From: Clostridiales bacterium
GTDB taxonomy: Bacteria; Bacillota; Clostridia; UBA1381
Length of the DNA: 35,677 nucleotides
Assembly: GCA_029219585.1 (NCBI GenBank)
Contig: JAQXTR010000084.1
Location: 1-35,677, forward strand
Direction of reading: 5' to 3'
Shown here: positions 841 through 14,264 of the stretch, in pieces
Position numbering within the stretch: position 1 is the first letter of the stretch
How the letters are laid out: the number at the start of each line of letters is the position of its first letter
Made by a program: the position numbers and the translations under genes
The notes under the pieces: generated by a model
Told to the model about the DNA's origin: nothing
The model's input: only the letters and a program-made list of their open reading frames with translations
Database searches by the model: none

Positions 841-886
841 TATGATATACATTAAAATTTATAATTCAACCAATAAGGAGACTGCT

Positions 887-2425
887 ATGAAAAGAGACGA
901 CATAAGATTCGAGCTTAAGCATGAGGTACTCAAGCTTGTTGCTGAACATACTTTTAATGATTCCATGACTATGGATGCGTTTGAACAGATACCTTTTCAG
1001 GTTATTCCGGGGATTACTCCGCGTTTCCGCTGCTGTGTTTATAAGGAACGCGAAATTATCCGCCAGAGAACAAGGCTTGCCCTTGGCATGATCCCTATAC
1101 CTCGCGATAATCATGAGCATATTAACATGAATGAACATATAATACAGGTTATTCCAGCGGCATGTGAGGGTTGTCCTATTAACCGTTTCCAGGTTACGGA
1201 AAACTGCCAGAACTGCATGCAGAAGGCCTGCCAGAAGGCGTGTGCGTTTGGTGCTATCACCATAACGCCCAGGGGTGCCTATATCGACCAGACAAAATGT
1301 AAGGAATGCGGTCGCTGCGCAGATTCATGTCCGTATCATGCGATTGCTGACCTTATGCGTCCGTGCAAAAGAAGCTGTGATGTAGCTGCAATTGAAATTG
1401 GCGGGAACAAGCTTGCGCATATAGACAGCAATAAATGTATTGCCTGCGGTCACTGCGTTCAGGCTTGTCCGTTCGGCGCAATTTCAGATATTTCATACAT
1501 AACAAAGGTTATAGAGGCAATCAAGGATCCGAATGTTGTTACCGTAGCAATTCCGGCGCCTGCTGTTGAGGGGCAGTTCGGGCCGAATGCGACAGTTGGC
1601 AGAGTTAAGACAGCCTTAAAGCAGCTCGGTTTCGATTATGTTTATGAAGTTGCTCTCGGAGGCGATCTAGTTTCAATGCACGAGGCTAAGGAACTTATAG
1701 AGAATAAGGAAAATGGAAGAAAAATGACAACTTCATGTTGTCCGGGCTTTGTAAATCTTATCAGAAAGCATTATCCCCAGCTGATGGAATATGTTTCAAC
1801 AACTGTTTCGCCTATGCAGGCTAATTATAGATATATTCAACAGAAACATCCGGGTGCATTTGTTGTATTCATAGGTCCGTGTATCGCAAAGAAATATGAA
1901 TCGGAAATGATGAAGGCTCCGGATGTAGTAATGACTTTTGAGGAGCTGAATGCGATATTTGATGCAAGACATATTAATCCGGAGGATTGTGATGAGGATA
2001 TTAATCCCGACGCAACCTCATACGGACGCCGTTTCTCAGGTGCAGGCGGTGTTGCGGCATCGGTTGTTAAGGCTGCGGCGGAGTGCGGAGTCAATGACGT
2101 TAAGACAAAGCCGTGCTCGGGTGTTAAGGAATGTAAGGTTGCCCTTGCTATGCTTAAGGCGGGCAAGCTTCCTGAGGATATTATTGAGGGTATGGCATGC
2201 GACGGCGGATGTATTGCCGGTCCGGGCTCGGTGGCGCAGCTGCCGCAGCTTAAGCAGGCGCGTTTGAAAAAGGTCAAGGGCAAGGATAACGATTCAATAG
2301 GTGATATGCTGAAGAATATGGACGCACTTGACGTTGATATGGTTCGTGAGAGCTTTGATATGCCTGAAAGAGATGACTTTATTCTTACAGATCATGTTCA
2401 TGTTCTGTTAAACAATAACAAGTAA
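887..2425 (+). CDS. [FeFe]-hydrogenase, group B-like, with ferredoxin domain
   Basis: The 512-residue protein carries H-cluster motifs: TSCCPGF (about 282-288), GPCIAKKYE (about 330-338) and EGMACDGGCIAGPG (about 434-447). These supply the four cysteines of the H-cluster (near 284, 332, 438 and 442). The N-terminal half has a Cys-rich segment (CEGCP...CQNCMQKACQKAC) and two ferredoxin motifs (CKECGRCADSCP, CIACGHCVQACP). In the second motif Gly replaces the Met of group A enzymes (MPC), which is typical of group B. Group A enzymes evolve or oxidise H2; the role of group B is poorly known. The start at 887 is chosen because it follows AAGGAG and an upstream promoter; the longer frame from 842 begins before the transcript would. 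The gene stands alone, with no maturase or HydB/C partner in the window. Confidence 0.9.
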   Translation: MKRDDIRFELKHEVLKLVAEHTFNDSMTMDAFEQIPFQVIPGITPRFRCCVYKEREIIRQRTRLALGMIPIPRDNHEHINMNEHIIQVIPAACEGCPINRFQVTENCQNCMQKACQKACAFGAITITPRGAYIDQTKCKECGRCADSCPYHAIADLMRPCKRSCDVAAIEIGGNKLAHIDSNKCIACGHCVQACPFGAISDISYITKVIEAIKDPNVVTVAIPAPAVEGQFGPNATVGRVKTALKQLGFDYVYEVALGGDLVSMHEAKELIENKENGRKMTTSCCPGFVNLIRKHYPQLMEYVSTTVSPMQANYRYIQQKHPGAFVVFIGPCIAKKYESEMMKAPDVVMTFEELNAIFDARHINPEDCDEDINPDATSYGRRFSGAGGVAASVVKAAAECGVNDVKTKPCSGVKECKVALAMLKAGKLPEDIIEGMACDGGCIAGPGSVAQLPQLKQARLKKVKGKDNDSIGDMLKNMDALDVDMVRESFDMPERDDFILTDHVHVLLNNNK

Positions 2426-4898: not shown

Positions 4899-4927
4899 TT
4901 GACAAATTATAATAGATATGGTATTAT
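4899..4927 (+). promoter_or_regulatory. Promoter of the small membrane protein/acyltransferase pair
   Basis: TTGACA (4899-4904), 17-base spacer, TATTAT (4922-4927), a near-consensus sigma-A promoter. An AAAGGAGG ribosome binding site follows. Confidence 0.85.
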
Positions 4928-4954
4928 TACAATAAAGGAGGTATTGAAAATAAA

Positions 4955-5194
4955 ATGCTACATTTCAAAATAATTATGCCGATTTTTATGTTTTTTTCCG
5001 TGTTTACATCTGTCAGTGCGTTTGCTTCAGAGGCGGCACCGGATCAAGGCTTAGAACGCATTCCGTGGGCAGTAAAATGTGCCGGAGCTATGCCGAAGGG
5101 GATGTCTGCAGGACTTGTCATCCTCGTTGTTGTTATTGTTCTTACAGTATGGCACGGAATTAGATTCAAGGGGGGAGAACGCGATGGCAAATAA
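4955..5194 (+). CDS. Small exported or membrane protein of unknown family
   Basis: I do not recognise a family. The 79-residue product has an N-terminal hydrophobic segment that looks like a signal peptide (MLHFKIIMPIFMFFSVFTSVSAFA, possible cleavage after AFA). A polar stretch of about 30 residues follows, then one strong membrane segment (SAGLVILVVVIVLTVWHGI) and a basic tail (RFKGGERDGK). The positive-inside pattern puts the tail in the cytoplasm and the middle outside. A promoter and AAAGGAGG precede it, which supports real expression. Its last 11 bases overlap the acyltransferase gene, so the two are probably translationally coupled and may work together. Confidence 0.72.
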   Translation: MLHFKIIMPIFMFFSVFTSVSAFASEAAPDQGLERIPWAVKCAGAMPKGMSAGLVILVVVIVLTVWHGIRFKGGERDGK

Positions 5195-6455
5195 TTCAAG
5201 AGAAAATCAGATTCCCGGTTATCTTTATGCCTTGGACGGACTTCGCGCTGTATCACTGATATTAATTGTAATGTTTCACACATGGCAGCAAAGCTGGATA
5301 GGCTATCAATGGAAGCCTTCATGGATGAATCATTACCTGTTTAATCTTGATATTCTTCAGCGCTGCGGATATGTGGCAATAGATTCTTTTTTTGTTCTGA
5401 GCGGCTTTTGCCTGTTTTATCCGATTGCAAGGGATATGTTCGGGGAAAGCAAATTCGGAGGCTGGAAGAACTTCTTTATTAAACGCGCAAGACGAATTTA
5501 TCCGTCATATCTGTTTATGCTGCTGATAATGTTATTTATTCCTAAGCTCTCCTATGGCTGTAATATGCGCAGCTTTTCAGATGTTTTAAAGCATTATCTG
5601 ACACACATATTATTTATACATACATGGGATGCTAAAACCCTTGGATCAACAATATCTACTGCATGGACAATGGGGATTGAATGCCAATTTTATGTAGTAT
5701 TCCCGCTACTGTGTATACCGTTTCGCAAAAAGCCCGTTATAACATTTGCGGGTATGGCATTTTTTTCACTCGGACTTCGCCTTGTTTTACTTTCATACGC
5801 AGATATCAGCGCGATGGTTATACAGGCTATAACTCCGGCATATTTTGATGTGTTTGGCTTCGGTATGCTTGCAGCTTACTTTGTTGTGTATTCGAGAAAC
5901 AACGCACGTGCTCTCATGGATAAGCTTAAGCTGTTTATGACGCTTATTTCTGCATTGTGCCTGTTCCTTGCGGTATGCTATATGTACTGGATCAGCCGCG
6001 TGCGCTTCCCGAACGGTTTCAACGGCGATGTATATTTCCGTTTCCTGTACCGCGGATTTTTCGCAGCACTGATTGCCGGATTTATATTTACAGCTTGCTT
6101 CTCCCACAGCATCTGGGAAAAGAAAATTTGGGGAAACAAACTATGGATTTTTCTCTCATCAATATCATATACGGTATATCTCTGGCATCAGAACATATAC
6201 ATATTCCTTAAAAGTACAAACCTTATGGGTGCGGTAACGGAGAGACCTATGGATGACAGACCGGCTATGTGGAGAATGGTCTTTATCTGTATAATATGTT
6301 CTGTGATAATCGGTTGGTTTGTTACAAAATATATTGAAGCTCCAATATCAAAATATGGATATAAAGGCTGCGGTTATAAAATTCTCGAGGCTTTTAAGTT
6401 AAAAAAAATTTCATCCGCATCCCAATCAAGATCTCCCCAAAAAAAGAAGAAATAA
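5184..6455 (+). CDS. Acyltransferase-3 family membrane protein (OafA-like)
   Basis: The 423-residue polytopic protein matches the acyltransferase-3 family. It has LDGLRAVSLILIVMFHTW with the essential His32, DSFFVLSGFCLFYP (about 67-80), RARRIYPSYL, STAWTMGIECQFYVVFPLL and SYTVYLWHQ. These enzymes move acetyl or other acyl groups across the membrane onto surface sugars. There is no fused SGNH domain. The C-terminal tail is short and very basic. The ATG at 5184 follows GGGGGGAG; the open frame extends back to 5079 but only through the preceding gene. It is coupled to that small gene by an 11-base overlap and converges on the glycosyltransferase operon, whose product it might acylate (inference). 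Confidence 0.9.
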   Translation: MANNSRENQIPGYLYALDGLRAVSLILIVMFHTWQQSWIGYQWKPSWMNHYLFNLDILQRCGYVAIDSFFVLSGFCLFYPIARDMFGESKFGGWKNFFIKRARRIYPSYLFMLLIMLFIPKLSYGCNMRSFSDVLKHYLTHILFIHTWDAKTLGSTISTAWTMGIECQFYVVFPLLCIPFRKKPVITFAGMAFFSLGLRLVLLSYADISAMVIQAITPAYFDVFGFGMLAAYFVVYSRNNARALMDKLKLFMTLISALCLFLAVCYMYWISRVRFPNGFNGDVYFRFLYRGFFAALIAGFIFTACFSHSIWEKKIWGNKLWIFLSSISYTVYLWHQNIYIFLKSTNLMGAVTERPMDDRPAMWRMVFICIICSVIIGWFVTKYIEAPISKYGYKGCGYKILEAFKLKKISSASQSRSPQKKKK

Positions 6456-6460
6456 AAGGA

Positions 6461-6496
6461 AGGCTTTGAGGTCACTTAACTCTGACCTCAAAGCCT
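6461..6496. terminator. Bidirectional terminator, 14-bp perfect stem
   Basis: AGGCTTTGAGGTCA (6461-6474), 8-base loop, perfect complement (6483-6496). It separates the convergent acyltransferase gene and glycosyltransferase operon, with U-rich flanks on both strands. Confidence 0.87.
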
Positions 6497-6501
6497 ATTT
6501 A

Positions 6502-8013
6502 TCAGAAATGAAGTATACTCATTGCGCAAAATAGTCCGATTATTGCCGTTCCTGTGTTCAACACATATTTAAAAACAATTTTATTTTTATTACGACTGCA
6601 GAAGTCTATAAAATAACCAATAAATATACATGCCGATAGCTGTCCAAGAAAAATGTATCTGAAATCTGCGGTGCACATATACGGGTATGACACATTAAAT
6701 TGAATATATGAAATTGTAATCAATAGCCATGTACATAACGGTGCATATTTTTGCAATTTTGTCAAGGTGGCATCCTTTGTAATTGAGAAAACAATACTTG
6801 CTGCACCCAATACAATTAACAGCATATGTATATAATCCAAGCCCCAAGAAAGGAATGACGGCAGATTTATATACGAAAATTCTCCATGTACTCCGGTTTT
6901 TATTATCGCCATGGGAATGCTTGCATCTTCATTCTCATTCATATATGGCTGTTTAAACACATCCTTGAGCGGTATATCAAGCCAACGCCGAAAAAAGGAC
7001 TCGTTACCGGTATATATTGTGGTACCCACACCAACGCTTGGTACAAATGTCAGAGGCTGTTCGAATTTAATAAGATTACGAATCGGATACCATAATCCGA
7101 GAGGGAAGCATATAATGCTAAATATAACAAGCTGTTTGAAAAAAGATATAATCTTATTCCTATCCTTAGTCTGTACGGTTTTAATAAGATGATAAATCAT
7201 TACCGGACCTGTTATTATTGCTATTATGCCGCAGTTTATCTTTGTCATCATTCCTAAGCCTATGGTTAAAGCTATGCCTATTATATATTTCAATTCTTCT
7301 TTCTCATGCCAGAGCAGGGTATAATACAAGGCCATAACCATGAACATAAACGCAAGGGCGTCATTATTCATTCTACCTGCAGCAAGGATCTGAACAGGAT
7401 AAAAAGACATTAATGACATTACGACGATCCGTACCGTTGCGCGTGCTTTAATTTTTTTCAAGAGTTCATCAATAAATACTAAAGTCACACAAGATGCTAT
7501 GCATGATACAAGCTGCGACATATACAGCAATTCATCAAGAGTACCTTTGCCTGTAACTGCCATTCCTATTTTCACAAACACAGCCGAAAGTATATAAAAC
7601 AATGGAGGCTGATAAAACTGATAGTTATTGCTTCTTGGTAAATGCCCCTGCAATACATTGTACAAGTACCCAAAATGACCTGTTGAGTTCGGGGTGTTTG
7701 TTCCCATATCATGACCCCTTATAAATGCATCCGTATATACAGTATATCCGGAGCGGTAAACTATACCGGCCATCATAATCAAAAACACAATATATTCAGA
7801 TGTCAGTCTCTTTTCTTTTGCCAAATATACACCGTAGCCCACCATACCCATAAATATTATACGCATAATTACATCTGTATTACCTTCATCATTAAGCTTA
7901 AACAGACGCAGCAAAATCATACTTATAACCGGTATCAGGCAGAATATCAACCGCCCTTTAAGTGAATAGCCTATGGGTTCTGCTACGGACTCTTTAATTC
8001 TTTTTTTCTTCAT
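6502..8013 (-). CDS. GT-C type membrane glycosyltransferase (ArnT/PMT-like)
   Basis: The 503-residue protein has around 10-12 hydrophobic segments. Its first external loop holds Asp in IRGHDMGT, followed by [15 protein letters not shown] and [17 protein letters not shown]. This D...G...Y..PP layout is typical of glycosyltransferase family 39/ArnT-like GT-C enzymes, which transfer sugar from a polyprenyl-phosphate donor outside the membrane. The acceptor is unknown. The ATG at 8013 is preferred because GGAGAAAG sits 6 bases upstream; an in-frame ATG at 8031 has no good RBS. The gene overlaps the upstream oxidoreductase gene by 20 bases and is the last gene of the operon. Confidence 0.82.
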
Positions 8014-9550
8014 GATATTCTTTCTCCGCATTTACGTTCCATATTTTTTCTTTATTGTATTTACCGCTTGTTGATTTTACTATTTGATCAACTGTCTCAA
8101 ATGCAGTAAGCATTGAATGGTCCATATTGTTATATCTGTGCTGTCCGTTTCTTCCCATACAGAACAAATTATTATAAGAGTCAAGGTAAGTCTTTATTTC
8201 ATCCATACAGTCATATGTGTCAAAATATGCCGGATATGCCTTTTTAATTCTTTCTATATGAGTGTCAAGAACATCTTCTCGTTTTATAATGCCGATTTTT
8301 TCAAGCTCCATAGAGGCAAAATTTATAAAGTCCTCATCTTTTAATGTCCACATCTCGTCTCCTTCATTACAGAAATATTCAAGTCCGAGCCATACTGTAT
8401 TTTCAAAATCTTTTACCATGTATGGTGACCAGTTGTTAAAAATCTGCACACGCCCCAGCTTTACAGAGCTGTCTTGAATATATATCCAACAATCAGGCAC
8501 TAATCCATTGAAATTTGGAATATCTGTTTTATTCTCAAGCTGTAGCTTATTTACAAGCAAACCTACTGTAATAAAATCACGATATGGAAGACCGGCAGCG
8601 GCTGCTTCTACAGTATCCGGTGCTTTCGAAGCAATCGCCGGGACAAGCTCTCTGATAGGCATTGTAGAAATAACGATATCGGCATCAATCTGCTTTTCTT
8701 CTCCGTGTTCAATATAAGTAACACCTGTAACCGTGTTTCCGTCAGTATTAAGTCTTACTGCCTTACAACACGGTCGGAAATCCACACCGGCCTGTATAGC
8801 CGTATTAAGTGCCGTTTCCCAAAGCTGACCCGGTCCGAATTTAGGATAATAGAATTCTTCTATGAGTGAAGTTTCAACCTCCTTGTTTCCGCCCGTAAGC
8901 TTTCCGAAAATATCCTTTAACACAGCCTTTACAGATAATCCCTTTACCCGCTGAGATCCCCAGTCCGCCGATATCTGCGATGGATGTCTGCCCCATACCT
9001 TCTCGGTATAGCCTTCAAAAAACATTGAATAAAGCTTTTTTCCGAAACGATTAATATAAAAGTTTTCAAGTGATGTCTCCGGTAATTTATGAACACACGC
9101 TCCGAGATAGGAAAATCCTGCCTGAATGGTTGTCGTAAATCCCATATTCTTAATGGTCTCCATCTTCATCGTAACAGGATAATCAAAGAATTTATTTTTA
9201 TAATAAATTCGCGATACCCTATGACGTTTAAGCATTACCCGGTCGATACTCTCCGGGTCTGCGCCTTCATCTGCATAAACTTTTTCCCGATTCAACAGCT
9301 TGTCATCTATTGATGGAGCACCCTGCGCTTCCATTATCTCATTCCACCAATCAGTTACCCTACTACTTTTTGAAAAGAAGCGATGTCCTCCTATATCCAT
9401 TCTATTACCATTGTATTTAACAGTCTGCGATATTCCTCCTATTCTATCCGACTCTTCCAAAACGGTTACATTATAGCCTTGATGTTTTTTTGAAAATTCA
9501 TAAGCTGCCGTTATTCCTGCCGGACCGGCTCCAATTATTACAATATCCAT
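7994..9550 (-). CDS. FAD/NAD(P)-binding oxidoreductase, UDP-galactopyranose mutase/protoporphyrinogen oxidase-like
   Basis: The 518-residue flavoprotein starts [19 protein letters not shown], an FAD-binding Rossmann motif (GxGxxG at 7-12). It continues with [14 protein letters not shown] and [13 protein letters not shown] second FAD motif is [12 protein letters not shown] near residue 290. The C-terminal part has [24 protein letters not shown], the closing flavin-binding region. The family is annotated as amine oxidase, protoporphyrinogen oxidase or UDP-galactopyranose mutase-like, and its substrate is not known. The neighbours are GtrA (4 bases upstream) and membrane glycosyltransferases, so a sugar or lipid-linked sugar substrate is plausible. 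A haem-pathway role is unlikely because no other haem gene is near. Confidence 0.85.
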
Positions 9551-9554
9551 TTAT

Positions 9555-9992
9555 TTACTCCTTATATAAAATTATTTTTCTTGCTGCAAAGTTCCATACA
9601 AGCACTATTACGGCAGCTATTATTTTTGATATCATAAAATAAAGCCCTATCTTGTCTGTGAATATATACATTAACAGTTCTGTCAATGCTAATCCCATTA
9701 CTCCTATTACACCGTAAACAATAAATTCAAATATTGAATTATGCTTGTTTTCAGTAAATACAAGTTTTTTTGATAATATAAAATTCACTGCTAAACCAAC
9801 CAGAAAAGCCAATGCTGCCGCTATAAGATAGTGTACTGCTTTTTCACAGACCCATAAAGCACCGGCATCGGCTAAAAAAGCCAATCCTCCAACAAAAACA
9901 TATCTAAAAAATTGTATAAATGTGTCCGTTGTTGGTTGGGTGAATAATCCTTTTATATCACACTTCTTTGCATACTCAATCAGTTGCTTCAT
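9555..9992 (-). CDS. GtrA-family membrane protein (lipid-linked sugar flippase type)
   Basis: The 145-residue protein has four membrane segments and the GtrA signatures FFRYVFVGGLAFLADAGALW, LAVNFILSKKLVF and VWNFAARKIILY. GtrA-family proteins are thought to flip polyprenyl-phosphate-linked sugars across the cytoplasmic membrane. It lies in one operon with a GtrB-like GT2 enzyme and GT-C transferases, which matches the donor synthesis, flipping and transfer scheme. The RBS AAGGGGGA lies 8 bases before the ATG. The gene is 17 bases after the large GT-C-like gene and 4 bases before the oxidoreductase gene. Confidence 0.88.
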   Translation of the reverse strand: MKQLIEYAKKCDIKGLFTQPTTDTFIQFFRYVFVGGLAFLADAGALWVCEKAVHYLIAAALAFLVGLAVNFILSKKLVFTENKHNSIFEFIVYGVIGVMGLALTELLMYIFTDKIGLYFMISKIIAAVIVLVWNFAARKIILYKE

Positions 9993-10009
9993 TAATGATT
10001 CCCCCTTCG

Positions 10010-11941
10010 TCAGTTCACCTTATAAAGAGCTTCTGTGCCTACGGAATATACTTTCTCAAGTCTTGCTATTGCATTTTCATTTACTGTATAATCCTTACTG
10101 TTGCGCTCATTTGAGCCGACATACACATAGCTTATGTTATTTTCCTTACAGAATTTTATAAGGTCGTCATACGAGCCACCGTATGCCTGCTTAAGCGCAT
10201 TTGTACGATTATAATATTCATCGCCGAGACCGTGGAAATATACATAAAGAGATGAACCTACATATATATTGCGTCCGGCAAGCGACGGTACCGGGTTCAG
10301 ATGATAGGAGCTTGTTAAGAATACTGCATCCTTCGGCGTATTTTCCTTTATATATTCCGCCATGTCAATTTTATCCTCGGTGAAGGTCTGGTACATATTT
10401 CCGCTATGATATTCTCTGCCAATTGTGAGAGCTCCCGAAAGGGTACCGGCAATTATAACAATAACAGCAAGATATGCACGACCCGGAACACCTTTAAGCT
10501 TGTTCCAGATAAATACAAGCCAGTCACTAACAACCATAAGCAGTATCATATATACCACATAGAACAGCTTATTGTTATCATACTCATTGGGCTGGAACAG
10601 GATAATCTCCGCAATTATAAATATAAATGCACAGCCGCAAAGAAGCTTTTTGTTGTCCTTGCCTGCCTTTAACACAGCCGGTACTGCAAACAATGCCGCT
10701 ATTCCCCAGTTCTTAAGATAGAACCAAAGATACGGGTCATTATGATTTACCCAATTGAACTGATATTTCAGGAACGAATCGTTTCCGCCGGTCTGTCTGA
10801 ATGTCCAGTACAGCAGCTGCGGCGCCGCCATTATTGCAACAATACCTCCGAATATTACCCAGTTAATCAAATAGGTCTTTTTATCCTCCGGCTTCTTTTC
10901 TTCAATTATATACGCAAAGAACATAACTGCACTTATCATACCTAAAGCAAGGAATGAATGAGTGTGAATCATAGGCATACTTCCGGCAAGCAAACCGAGA
11001 ATTATATATCTGGTTCTTGACTTTGTTTTAACCGCATCAATAAGCAGCCACAGGGTTGGCATAAGCATAAACCAGCCTGCCATTGTTGTTCTCTGCGGAA
11101 TAATCATATCGCAGATCGTATTTGACCAACGTATATTATGATCGTTCAGATTTGTCGGAGTTTGGTAATATTCTGTGAATATCTTTGTAAATGCAGTATG
11201 ATCCGCCTTCGCACCCTCCATAAAGTACGCAAAGCCAAAGCCGCCGCAGAAGAAGAAAAATACAACTGCAAGAACCGATGCCGCCTTATTGCCTGTCACC
11301 TTATGCGAGAGGAAATAAAATCCCATAATAAGAAGCATCGAAATTATGTAACTCGGTATCAGAACTGCCCATCTTAATGATGTTCCGAACAGATAGAGAC
11401 TCGACGACAGCATATCCACAAAGAATGGATAATTCATTGTGTAACCGTCAAGAAATACATAATTAGGCGGAAATTTGCCCTGCTCGGCAATACTTGTTAC
11501 AAATCCAAGATGCATCTGCAAATCTCCAAAGGTACACTGTCCACACCCATAGCCGCCGCCCTCATACGGCGCAAGAACATGATTTGTAAGCAGCACTGCA
11601 ACGATAATGGTTATCGGCAGCACAAGGCATAAGAATATTTTATTTCCCATCACTGATTCTTCATTCTTGCGTGTTATCATCAGTGATTTCTTAAAATAAT
11701 CAATTCCGTTTTTCTTTATAATATAACCTACAGGCAATACTGATAACGCTATCAGTATTATATGGCTTAAATATGTAAATCCGCATAGTACTGACGGAAC
11801 CACAATACCCATCATAAGTATCACATTACCGAAAACGCCGCCCATCCAGCTTCGGAAATATATGTCCTTGTTATTAAACACATGGCAGCTGTATACATAG
11901 CCGATAAACAAAAAATATAAGTAAACAATTATTCCTAACAT
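10010..11941 (-). CDS. Large polytopic membrane protein, GT-C glycosyltransferase-like
   Basis: The 643-residue protein has about a dozen hydrophobic segments and a soluble C-terminal tail of roughly 110 residues. After the third to fourth segment comes a large external loop, CTFGDLQMHLGFVTSIAEQG, then FPPNYVFLDGYTMNYPFFVDML. This Asp-rich first loop and the later WFMLMPTLWLL and IHTHSFLALG regions resemble GT-C enzymes. I do not recognise an exact family. The tail (from about DMAEYIKENTPKDAVFLTSS) resembles the soluble ends of other GT-C proteins and includes LAGRNIYVGSSLYV. Its place between PIG-V-like and GtrA genes supports a sugar-transfer role. Confidence 0.75.
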   Translation of the reverse strand: MLGIIVYLYFLFIGYVYSCHVFNNKDIYFRSWMGGVFGNVILMMGIVVPSVLCGFTYLSHIILIALSVLPVGYIIKKNGIDYFKKSLMITRKNEESVMGNKIFLCLVLPITIIVAVLLTNHVLAPYEGGGYGCGQCTFGDLQMHLGFVTSIAEQGKFPPNYVFLDGYTMNYPFFVDMLSSSLYLFGTSLRWAVLIPSYIISMLLIMGFYFLSHKVTGNKAASVLAVVFFFFCGGFGFAYFMEGAKADHTAFTKIFTEYYQTPTNLNDHNIRWSNTICDMIIPQRTTMAGWFMLMPTLWLLIDAVKTKSRTRYIILGLLAGSMPMIHTHSFLALGMISAVMFFAYIIEEKKPEDKKTYLINWVIFGGIVAIMAAPQLLYWTFRQTGGNDSFLKYQFNWVNHNDPYLWFYLKNWGIAALFAVPAVLKAGKDNKKLLCGCAFIFIIAEIILFQPNEYDNNKLFYVVYMILLMVVSDWLVFIWNKLKGVPGRAYLAVIVIIAGTLSGALTIGREYHSGNMYQTFTEDKIDMAEYIKENTPKDAVFLTSSYHLNPVPSLAGRNIYVGSSLYVYFHGLGDEYYNRTNALKQAYGGSYDDLIKFCKENNISYVYVGSNERNSKDYTVNENAIARLEKVYSVGTEALYKVN

Positions 11942-11957
11942 CCTTTTTACTACCTTT

Positions 11958-13265
11958 CTACAATATTTGCTTTTGCATGAAATATGCGGTCAGATATACA
12001 CCCATTGCCACCGCCATTCCTATCGTTATAACCTGCTCCGTCCATTTATGACGCTCAGAAAAATCAGCGAGAATCATGAATGCCGGAATTGCGCAAGTCA
12101 TATATCTTGCTTCGCTGATTGGCCATTTAGCGCCGGCATTTACTATAAAGAATACAATGAGATATGCTATATACATGCTCCTATGCTTACGCAGACCATA
12201 TATCAGAGCCGCCACTACAAATGTAACCGAGCAGACAGCCGGAATCCAGATCGCAAACCTTGTATACTTTGTTTCTTTAATAAAATAGCTGAACATAGTC
12301 GTCAGACTTTTTCCGAAATATGTAAAACCCTGATACCAGTATTTTTCTTCGTACTCGAAGAACTTAAAACAATCTCCCGTAACCTTATAGTTACAAAACA
12401 GATATATCCCCAGTCCTGCCAACATAAGAAATATCCATAAGCCCTTTGAATAAAACAGATTCCATACCGCTTTTATTTTTTTCTCCTTAAGCTTGCCCAA
12501 AATGCCATAATACTCCAGCCATTCAACTGCAGCAGGAAACGCAAGAAGCAAGCCTGCCATTCTTGACAGTGCCGCAAGGGCACCGAAAATGCCTACTTTT
12601 ACCCAATCATGCTTTCTTATGTAGTATAAAGTTGCAGCAGACATAAAGAGCAGCAGACTCTCATTCATCATCGTTCCAAAAAACAACGCATGAGGAAAAG
12701 CGGAAATAAATACTATTGTTCGCTTTGCTGTAGATTTATTATAATCTACAGCCATAAGCCTATATAAATAACAGCATGCACCGGCATACAGAAGCCAGGA
12801 AACCAATATTCCGCTCACTCTGATATTTGTCAAAAATATTGATGCAAGTCTTATCAGCCATGGATATAACGGAAAAAATACGAGTGTCAAATAGTCTCCG
12901 TCAATATTGTAATAAGTATAGCCACCCAGCGCAATACGCTCATAGTTTTTCGCATCCCACTGCATATACGTATTTAAAATGTCTTCAAAGCTCATGGAGC
13001 TATCCTTCATTATATATATTGAGCATATGGAAATCATAAAAATAACCAATCGGAACAGCATGGCAAGTCCGAACAGCTTCAGTAAATCAAATCTGCCAAT
13101 ATCAAATCCTCCCTTAAGGCTTTTATCGGCAGTAATTACCTGATTAAGCCGGCTACCGCCTAAAGAAATTCCGGAATTTGATAATATCCTGAGAATTACA
13201 ACAATAACCGCACCCCATATACATACGCTTGAAATAATAGGTATTAATATCATATTATTTGCCAT
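11958..13265 (-). CDS. PIG-V-like mannosyltransferase family membrane protein
   Basis: The protein of about 435 residues carries the pattern of the PIG-V/GPI mannosyltransferase II family. It has MQWDAKNYERIALGGYTY (the catalytic-type Asp in the first external loop), TLVFFPLYPWLIR, FPHALFFGTMMNESLLLF, LAALSRMAGLLLAFPA and YEEKYWYQGFTYFGKSL. In eukaryotes the family adds mannose to GPI precursors; bacterial members are presumed polyprenyl-phosphate-sugar-dependent transferases. The start is uncertain. AAAGGAG is only 3 bases before the ATG at 13265, another ATG lies at 13253, and an in-frame TTG at 13280 lacks an RBS. It is 33 bases downstream of the GT2 gene. Confidence 0.83.
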   Translation of the reverse strand: MANNMILIPIISSVCIWGAVIVVILRILSNSGISLGGSRLNQVITADKSLKGGFDIGRFDLLKLFGLAMLFRLVIFMISICSIYIMKDSSMSFEDILNTYMQWDAKNYERIALGGYTYYNIDGDYLTLVFFPLYPWLIRLASIFLTNIRVSGILVSWLLYAGACCYLYRLMAVDYNKSTAKRTIVFISAFPHALFFGTMMNESLLLFMSAATLYYIRKHDWVKVGIFGALAALSRMAGLLLAFPAAVEWLEYYGILGKLKEKKIKAVWNLFYSKGLWIFLMLAGLGIYLFCNYKVTGDCFKFFEYEEKYWYQGFTYFGKSLTTMFSYFIKETKYTRFAIWIPAVCSVTFVVAALIYGLRKHRSMYIAYLIVFFIVNAGAKWPISEARYMTCAIPAFMILADFSERHKWTEQVITIGMAVAMGVYLTAYFMQKQIL

Positions 13266-13298
13266 GAACTCCTTTCTCAAAAGCTGATTTTAGCCGAA

Positions 13299-14264
13299 CT
13301 ATCTTTCACCTATAATCTTCTCAACGATATACCGCGGTCTGCGCTTGACTTCCTTATACATTTTTCCGATATACTCTCCGATAAGTCCGGTGCCCAGCAG
13401 CTGAAAGCCGCCGATAAACCAGATTGAGCACATAAGCGATGCCCAGCCCGCATTTGTGTTGCCGAGTATTTTTTCAATAATGGCATATATCAGCATTGCA
13501 AGAGCGACCACGCATGCTACGGCACCTACTGATGATATAAGACGTATCGGATTAATACTGAACGAGGTTATGCCGTCAAATGCAAACGCAAGCATTTTTT
13601 TCAGCGGATACTTGGATTCTCCGGCAAAACGTTCATTTCTTTCATAATATACACAGTCTGATTTATATCCGATAAGCGGAACCATTCCGCGCAGGAACAG
13701 GTTTCTTTCCTCAAATTCTGCAAGCCCTTCCAATGCCTTCTTGCTCATTAGTCTGTAATCGGCATGGTTGTACACTATATTAACACCCATTGCCTTCATA
13801 AGCTTATAGAAGCCCAGCGCAGTTGTACGCTTGAAGAAGGTATCCGTTTCCCTTTTATTGCGTACACCGTAAACAATTTCGCAGTCCTCATCCCGGAATT
13901 TCCTTATCATATCCGGAATTACATGAATATCATCCTGCAGATCTGCGTCAATTGAAATGGCGCAGTCACACTCGTCCTTAACCGTCATAAGCCCTCCGTA
14001 GAGAACATTCTGATGTCCGACGTTATGCGCCATCTTTATTCCAAGCACTTCAATATGCTTTTTCTGCAGCTCAGATATTATCTCCCATGTTCTGTCACGG
14101 CTTCCGTCATCTGCAAACACAATTCTGCTGTCATCGGAAATAAGCTTGTCTGCCTTCATTTCATCGAAAACTCCAAGCAGCTGACGGCAGGTTTCATGCA
14201 AAACCTCCTCCTCATTGTAGCATGGCAATACTATATATGCCTTTACCCTTTTACTCATTTTCAT
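13299..14264 (-). CDS. GT2 polyprenyl-phosphate glycosyltransferase (GtrB/DPM1-like)
   Basis: The 321-residue protein has a cytosolic GT-A domain followed by two membrane segments (about 235-265 and 270-300). Motifs are VLPCYNEEE (12-20), ADDGSRDRT (51-59), the metal-binding IDADLQDD (105-112) and NERFAGESKYPLKKM. This matches enzymes that load glucose, mannose or another sugar from a nucleotide onto undecaprenyl phosphate. It is the likely donor-maker for the three GT-C-like proteins downstream. The ATG at 14264 overlaps the hslO stop as ATGA. The ATG at 14258 has better spacing from GGGAG and is an equal candidate. Confidence 0.92.
   Translation of the reverse strand: MKMSKRVKAYIVLPCYNEEEVLHETCRQLLGVFDEMKADKLISDDSRIVFADDGSRDRTWEIISELQKKHIEVLGIKMAHNVGHQNVLYGGLMTVKDECDCAISIDADLQDDIHVIPDMIRKFRDEDCEIVYGVRNKRETDTFFKRTTALGFYKLMKAMGVNIVYNHADYRLMSKKALEGLAEFEERNLFLRGMVPLIGYKSDCVYYERNERFAGESKYPLKKMLAFAFDGITSFSINPIRLISSVGAVACVVALAMLIYAIIEKILGNTNAGWASLMCSIWFIGGFQLLGTGLIGEYIGKMYKEVKRRPRYIVEKIIGER

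Follow-up and report, generated by a model that had tools for sequence, protein, structure and literature searches.

Whether stand-alone acyltransferase-3 (AT3) proteins need a partner of unknown identity is a question that has been asked in the literature on this family (PMC9833829, PMC9558356). The question is raised in a concrete form by a locus in a gut Clostridia bacterium, at which an AT3 gene is directly preceded by, and overlaps with, a small gene for a putative membrane protein. The locus lies in a stretch of 35,677 nucleotides, which is referred to here as the window. The first-pass annotation had suggested that the small protein could serve as a helper of the AT3, and a search for small AT3 partners found none in the papers searched. 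We consider it probable that the products of the two genes together make up a two-subunit AT3 enzyme of the TmAT superfamily, in which the small protein would be a dedicated structural subunit and not an acyl carrier. AT3 enzymes are of a known kind; what appears to be new is an AT3 encoded by two genes, with a one-helix protein supplied separately.

The AT3 protein itself gives a clear match to PF01757 (93.7 bits, cut-off 31; E 1.5e-26) and it is to this family, not to the HGSNAT family, that Pfam assigns it. Both of the motifs by which membership of the AT3 family is tested, DxxRx10H in TMH1 and RxxR in TMH3, are present. Residues D18, R21, H32 and R101 are invariant across the 13 AT3s of the clade to which the window protein belongs, and R104 is present in the window AT3. 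The ORF list contains no SGNH domain fused to the AT3 or beside it at the locus. That an SGNH partner is missing here had been pointed out in the first-pass annotation. The absence at the locus stands and is not in itself remarkable, since AT3 proteins for the most part stand alone (PMC9833829, PMC9558356) and the genome holds 13 matches to the SGNH/GDSL family (PF13472), all outside the window contig. These matches could represent unlinked AT3 partners.

The small protein is predicted to start with the signal peptide MLHFKIIMPIFMFFSVFTSVSAFA, after which the sequence continues with SEA. The architecture originally attributed to its 79 residues (a signal-like start, an external middle, one helix and a basic tail) was borne out by the ORFs and by hydropathy, as was the 11-base overlap with the AT3 gene (Table 1). 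In an alignment of 13 homologues a similar signal peptide is seen in 12, with a weaker cleavage site in that of genome G448, and the external segment measures between 21 and 28 residues in all of them. This segment carries a nearly invariant Arg and, just N-terminal of the helix, a nearly invariant Pro. No column of the alignment holds a conserved Ser, Thr, Cys, Tyr, His or Lys, and the window protein contains no Tyr in its external segment. A lipoprotein identity was considered and rejected because the predicted cleavage site has no Cys. There is no Pfam family for the small protein, and its NCBIfam matches are at chance level only.

Table 1. Features of the gene pair and its surroundings, in coordinates of the window
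Feature	Position	Strand	Basis and remarks
Sigma-70-type promoter, TTGACA-17-TATTAT, TG before the -10	4899..4927	+	Near-consensus, 11/12 matches; consensus match only
Shine-Dalgarno AAAGGAGG of small gene	4934..4941	+	Sequence read directly; spacing 13 nt
Small membrane protein gene	4955..5194	+	ORF, ATG start, 79 aa; homologues beside the same AT3 in 12 other genomes
Signal peptide, 24 aa, predicted cleavage AFA/SEA	4955..5026	+	Basic start, hydrophobic core, A-x-A site
External segment, 26 aa	5027..5104	+	Alignment; short helix predicted within it
Transmembrane helix, 19 residues, N-out/C-in	5105..5161	+	Hydropathy 2.39
Basic cytoplasmic tail, 10 residues, net charge +2	5162..5191	+	Sequence
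Shine-Dalgarno of AT3 gene, within small gene	5171..5177	+	Sequence read directly
Overlap of small gene with AT3 gene, 11 bases	5184..5194	+	ORF coordinates
Acyltransferase-3 (AT3), 423 aa, D18xxR21x10H32 and R101xxR104	5184..6455	+	PF01757, motifs, predicted TmAT fold
Hairpin after AT3 gene, terminator-like on the - strand	6461..6496	.	14 pairs
Convergent surface-glycan cassette: PMT_2, FAD oxidoreductase, GtrA, membrane protein, PMT_2, GT2-like	6502..14264	-	Pfam; GT2-like by sequence

Evidence that the small frame is translated into a conserved product came from the relatives of the AT3. Each of the 13 clade members found, the window included, has a signal-peptide-plus-helix ORF immediately in front of its AT3 gene, and these members come from two bacterial families. 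Besides the window the clade comprises three f1 genomes (G001, G029, G025), L010 and eight f19 genomes (G162, G250, G109, G290, G437, G436, G439, G448). In most members the two genes overlap by 8-11 bases; the overlap is 4 bases in G025 and is replaced by a 2-base gap in G001. The small proteins are 19-33% identical to that of the window and the AT3s 44-62%. The pattern of substitution in the small gene is that of coding sequence, with dN/dS of 0.18-0.28 in five of six comparisons; the sixth gave 0.85, from only 11 changes. The AT3 gene gave 0.04-0.15. Both the conservation of the frame and its substitution pattern thus agree with the earlier proposal, and on this sequence evidence the small frame is a genuine gene.

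The two genes are also strictly associated. A profile built from the 13 small proteins was run against 391 genomes of the class, and full-length matches of at least 75 bits were found in exactly eight of them, the same eight that have an AT3 of the clade; the next best match was partial and scored 23 bits. Among these 391 genomes the small protein was never found without the AT3. The divergence of the small proteins parallels that of the AT3s (Mantel r 0.91, p 0.0001), as is expected for any pair of genes inherited together. The neighbours of the pair vary by genome and include, as recognised by sequence, an M18 aminopeptidase, a polysaccharide deacetylase, a DnaI-like protein and an ABC transporter, which argues that the small gene and the AT3 gene have been kept together as a unit. 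No further clade members were present in a phylum-wide sample of 398 genomes, and among the matches listed from plasmid and phage collections there were only distant AT3s of less than 30% identity. A scan of genome contigs gave only three loci, because few patterns were used. The family is known from 13 genomes in two families only, and many AT3s do without the small protein.

AT3s outside the clade, which score about 160-213 bits against the clade profile, are of two kinds. In front of nine of them (f17, f68, f55, f83) no such ORF was seen within the readable stretch; one of the nine starts near a contig end. Four f17 AT3s (L027, L028, L030, L032) are situated directly downstream of an argS-like gene, with no small gene. 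The other kind is represented by two f16 AT3s (G072, G108; L033:1303-2730, L036:1297-2727), which lack a signal peptide and carry an N-out helix fused to their N-terminus. The same topology would be needed if the small protein were joined to an AT3. Homology between the fused helices and the small protein is not supported, as a profile of the mature small proteins did not place these helices above background (best ranks 238 and 435 of 1684), and the likeness is best regarded as an analogy. In f19 genomes (L117-L120) the vicinity of the pair appears to hold a gene for a second AT3-like protein (RQSNFELLRIISML...), some 3-6 kb after the AT3.

Because the small gene always travels with the AT3 gene and overlaps it, the two products are probably parts of one two-part enzyme. 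The main rival to a structural subunit is a protein that acts purely as a chaperone, or as an insertion or stability factor, for the AT3 and has no part in the finished enzyme. The small gene is encoded first and is probably translationally coupled to the AT3 gene, as would suit such a factor, and the combination of low identity (19-33%) with conserved anatomy would suit it as well. The conserved positions and the near-constant length of the external segment suggest instead a specific surface contact, a property that would also fit a chaperone. We consider this explanation unlikely, and a structural subunit remains our preferred reading.

The surroundings of the pair bear on the acceptor and on a further alternative. 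The AT3 gene converges with a surface-glycan cassette, and relatives of parts of this cassette are found near the pair in G109, G162, G250, G290 and G439; further genes that look by sequence like those of membrane glycosyltransferases lie beside it in G001, G437 and G436. A set of genes like this is usual for the addition of sugars outside the membrane. It is thus likely that the acceptor is a surface glycan, and on this gene context the acyl group would probably be placed on one of its sugars. Elsewhere in the window, positions 842-2425 (+) appear to encode a protein with ferredoxin-like clusters and an iron-hydrogenase-like C-terminal part. The presence of glycan genes near the pair in several genomes could also mean that the small protein works independently of the AT3, for instance by binding a glycosyltransferase or a protein of the cell wall, and that the two genes are simply transcribed together. 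That it never occurred without this AT3 among the 391 genomes, while other neighbours vary, makes this a decidedly improbable account.

A near-consensus promoter upstream and a hairpin downstream suggest that the gene pair can form its own transcription unit, sites of these types being no more numerous in the region than in shuffled sequence and so supporting only. The overlap with the AT3 start and the Shine-Dalgarno sequence inside the small gene could be taken to indicate that the small ORF is a leader, which couples or regulates translation of the AT3 and whose product is irrelevant. The low dN/dS argues against such a role, as does the fact that signal peptide, external segment and helix are conserved in both families, and we regard it as very unlikely.

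A known membrane microprotein of surface acylation is DltX, in which the acyl group is held by the Tyr of an FxYxxF motif in the extracellular C-terminal part (PMC12148441). AT3-SGNH enzymes transfer the acyl group to the SGNH domain by way of an acyl-Tyr, and in D-alanylation it is passed on via the Tyr of DltX (PMC12148441). Like the small protein, DltX is small, has one helix and is encoded with a membrane acyltransferase that serves surface polymers. In contrast, its partner is an MBOAT and its C-terminus, with the acyl-Tyr motif, faces outward, whereas the C-terminus of the small protein is predicted to lie inside, and no extracellular C-terminal FxYxxF is found in the 13-member alignment. 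A DltX-like shuttling of acyl groups, either to the acceptor itself or to an unlinked SGNH enzyme, has a precedent in DltX (PMC12148441) and potential recipients in the 13 SGNH matches, but it is the least likely of the explanations considered given the opposite orientation, the lack of a conserved nucleophile and the absence of Tyr from the external segment of the window protein. A role as acyl carrier was accordingly rejected. The helper role first proposed thus survives as that of a dedicated partner, for which strict co-occurrence, gene overlap and purifying selection all speak; the parallel first drawn with small proteins of other surface acylation systems stops short of a mechanism like that of DltX.

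A PDB sequence search found no relative. For both joint folds the AT3 was modelled as one chain with the mature small protein, the chain being obtained by translating the window DNA with a single four-letter step (GGCA=G); the step is a modelling device and makes no claim of a frame shift in the cell. A first AlphaFold model, from a 7-row alignment, was poor (pLDDT 54) and showed no overlay on the first transmembrane helix (TM1) of HGSNAT. A second, from 22 rows of which the extra ones were AT3s from viral contigs, reached a pLDDT of 75 and a pTM of 0.78, the latter being a one-chain value and not an inter-chain score. TmAT enzymes made up all of its best fold matches (HGSNAT, with Z 16.2 across 327 residues, and GWT1, with Z 10.7), with the next unrelated fold at Z 5.2, and the predicted structure thus recovers the ten-helix TmAT fold. 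The window AT3 would share this core, together with DxxRx10H and RxxR, with PF01757 enzymes of the TmAT superfamily such as OafB, OatA and Oac; it differs from them in having no SGNH domain and in the separate one-helix protein encoded alongside. An extra helix and an external part are likewise added to the AT3 core in the AT3-SGNH fusions OafB and OatA, but there the helix is number 11, C-terminal, and comes with an enzyme domain, whereas the small helix would be N-terminal in position and has no domain.

Human HGSNAT likewise has a signal peptide, an external part and an N-out helix ahead of its core (PMC11357348). In alignments of the second model with five HGSNAT entries, the first aligned residue is 20-24 in the model and 189-196 in the HGSNAT chain, the latter being the start of TM1 (PMC11357348) given a 28-residue offset in numbering between entries. 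The predicted topology of the small protein, an N-out helix before a ten-helix core, agrees with that of HGSNAT TM1, and the co-folding suggests that the small helix may sit where TM1 sits. This overlay is weak evidence, since the small part has a low pLDDT of about 27-52, the one-chain tether of the helix to the AT3 N-terminus favours the TM1 site, and the overlay is absent from the first model. HGSNAT differs from the pair in that a single gene encodes it, its product being cleaved afterwards, and in that TM1 is preceded by a luminal domain of about 110 residues. A domain of this type is absent from the two-gene pair, in which the external segment has 26 residues.

In the two-subunit enzyme that we favour, the AT3 would bind acyl-CoA from the cytoplasm and present the acyl group outside. 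The small protein would be exported by way of its signal peptide, cleaved, and retained as a one-helix subunit with its N-terminus outside and its C-terminus inside. Its helix would pack on the AT3 core, probably at the site occupied by the extra first helix of HGSNAT, and so complete the helix bundle without carrying an acyl group. The short external segment may lie near the outer mouth of the enzyme and either stabilise it or shape the access of the acceptor.

A more tentative proposal is that some AT3s are obligate two-subunit enzymes, the first helix of which is provided by a separate microprotein equivalent to a split-off HGSNAT TM1 and luminal part, with the external segment helping to form the acceptor site, a site that stand-alone AT3s were thought to lack. 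For the question of whether stand-alone AT3s need a partner, the small protein provides a concrete candidate that is strictly co-inherited and of simple anatomy, and the pair, being compact and consisting of two genes only, lends itself to transfer into a laboratory host and to testing there.
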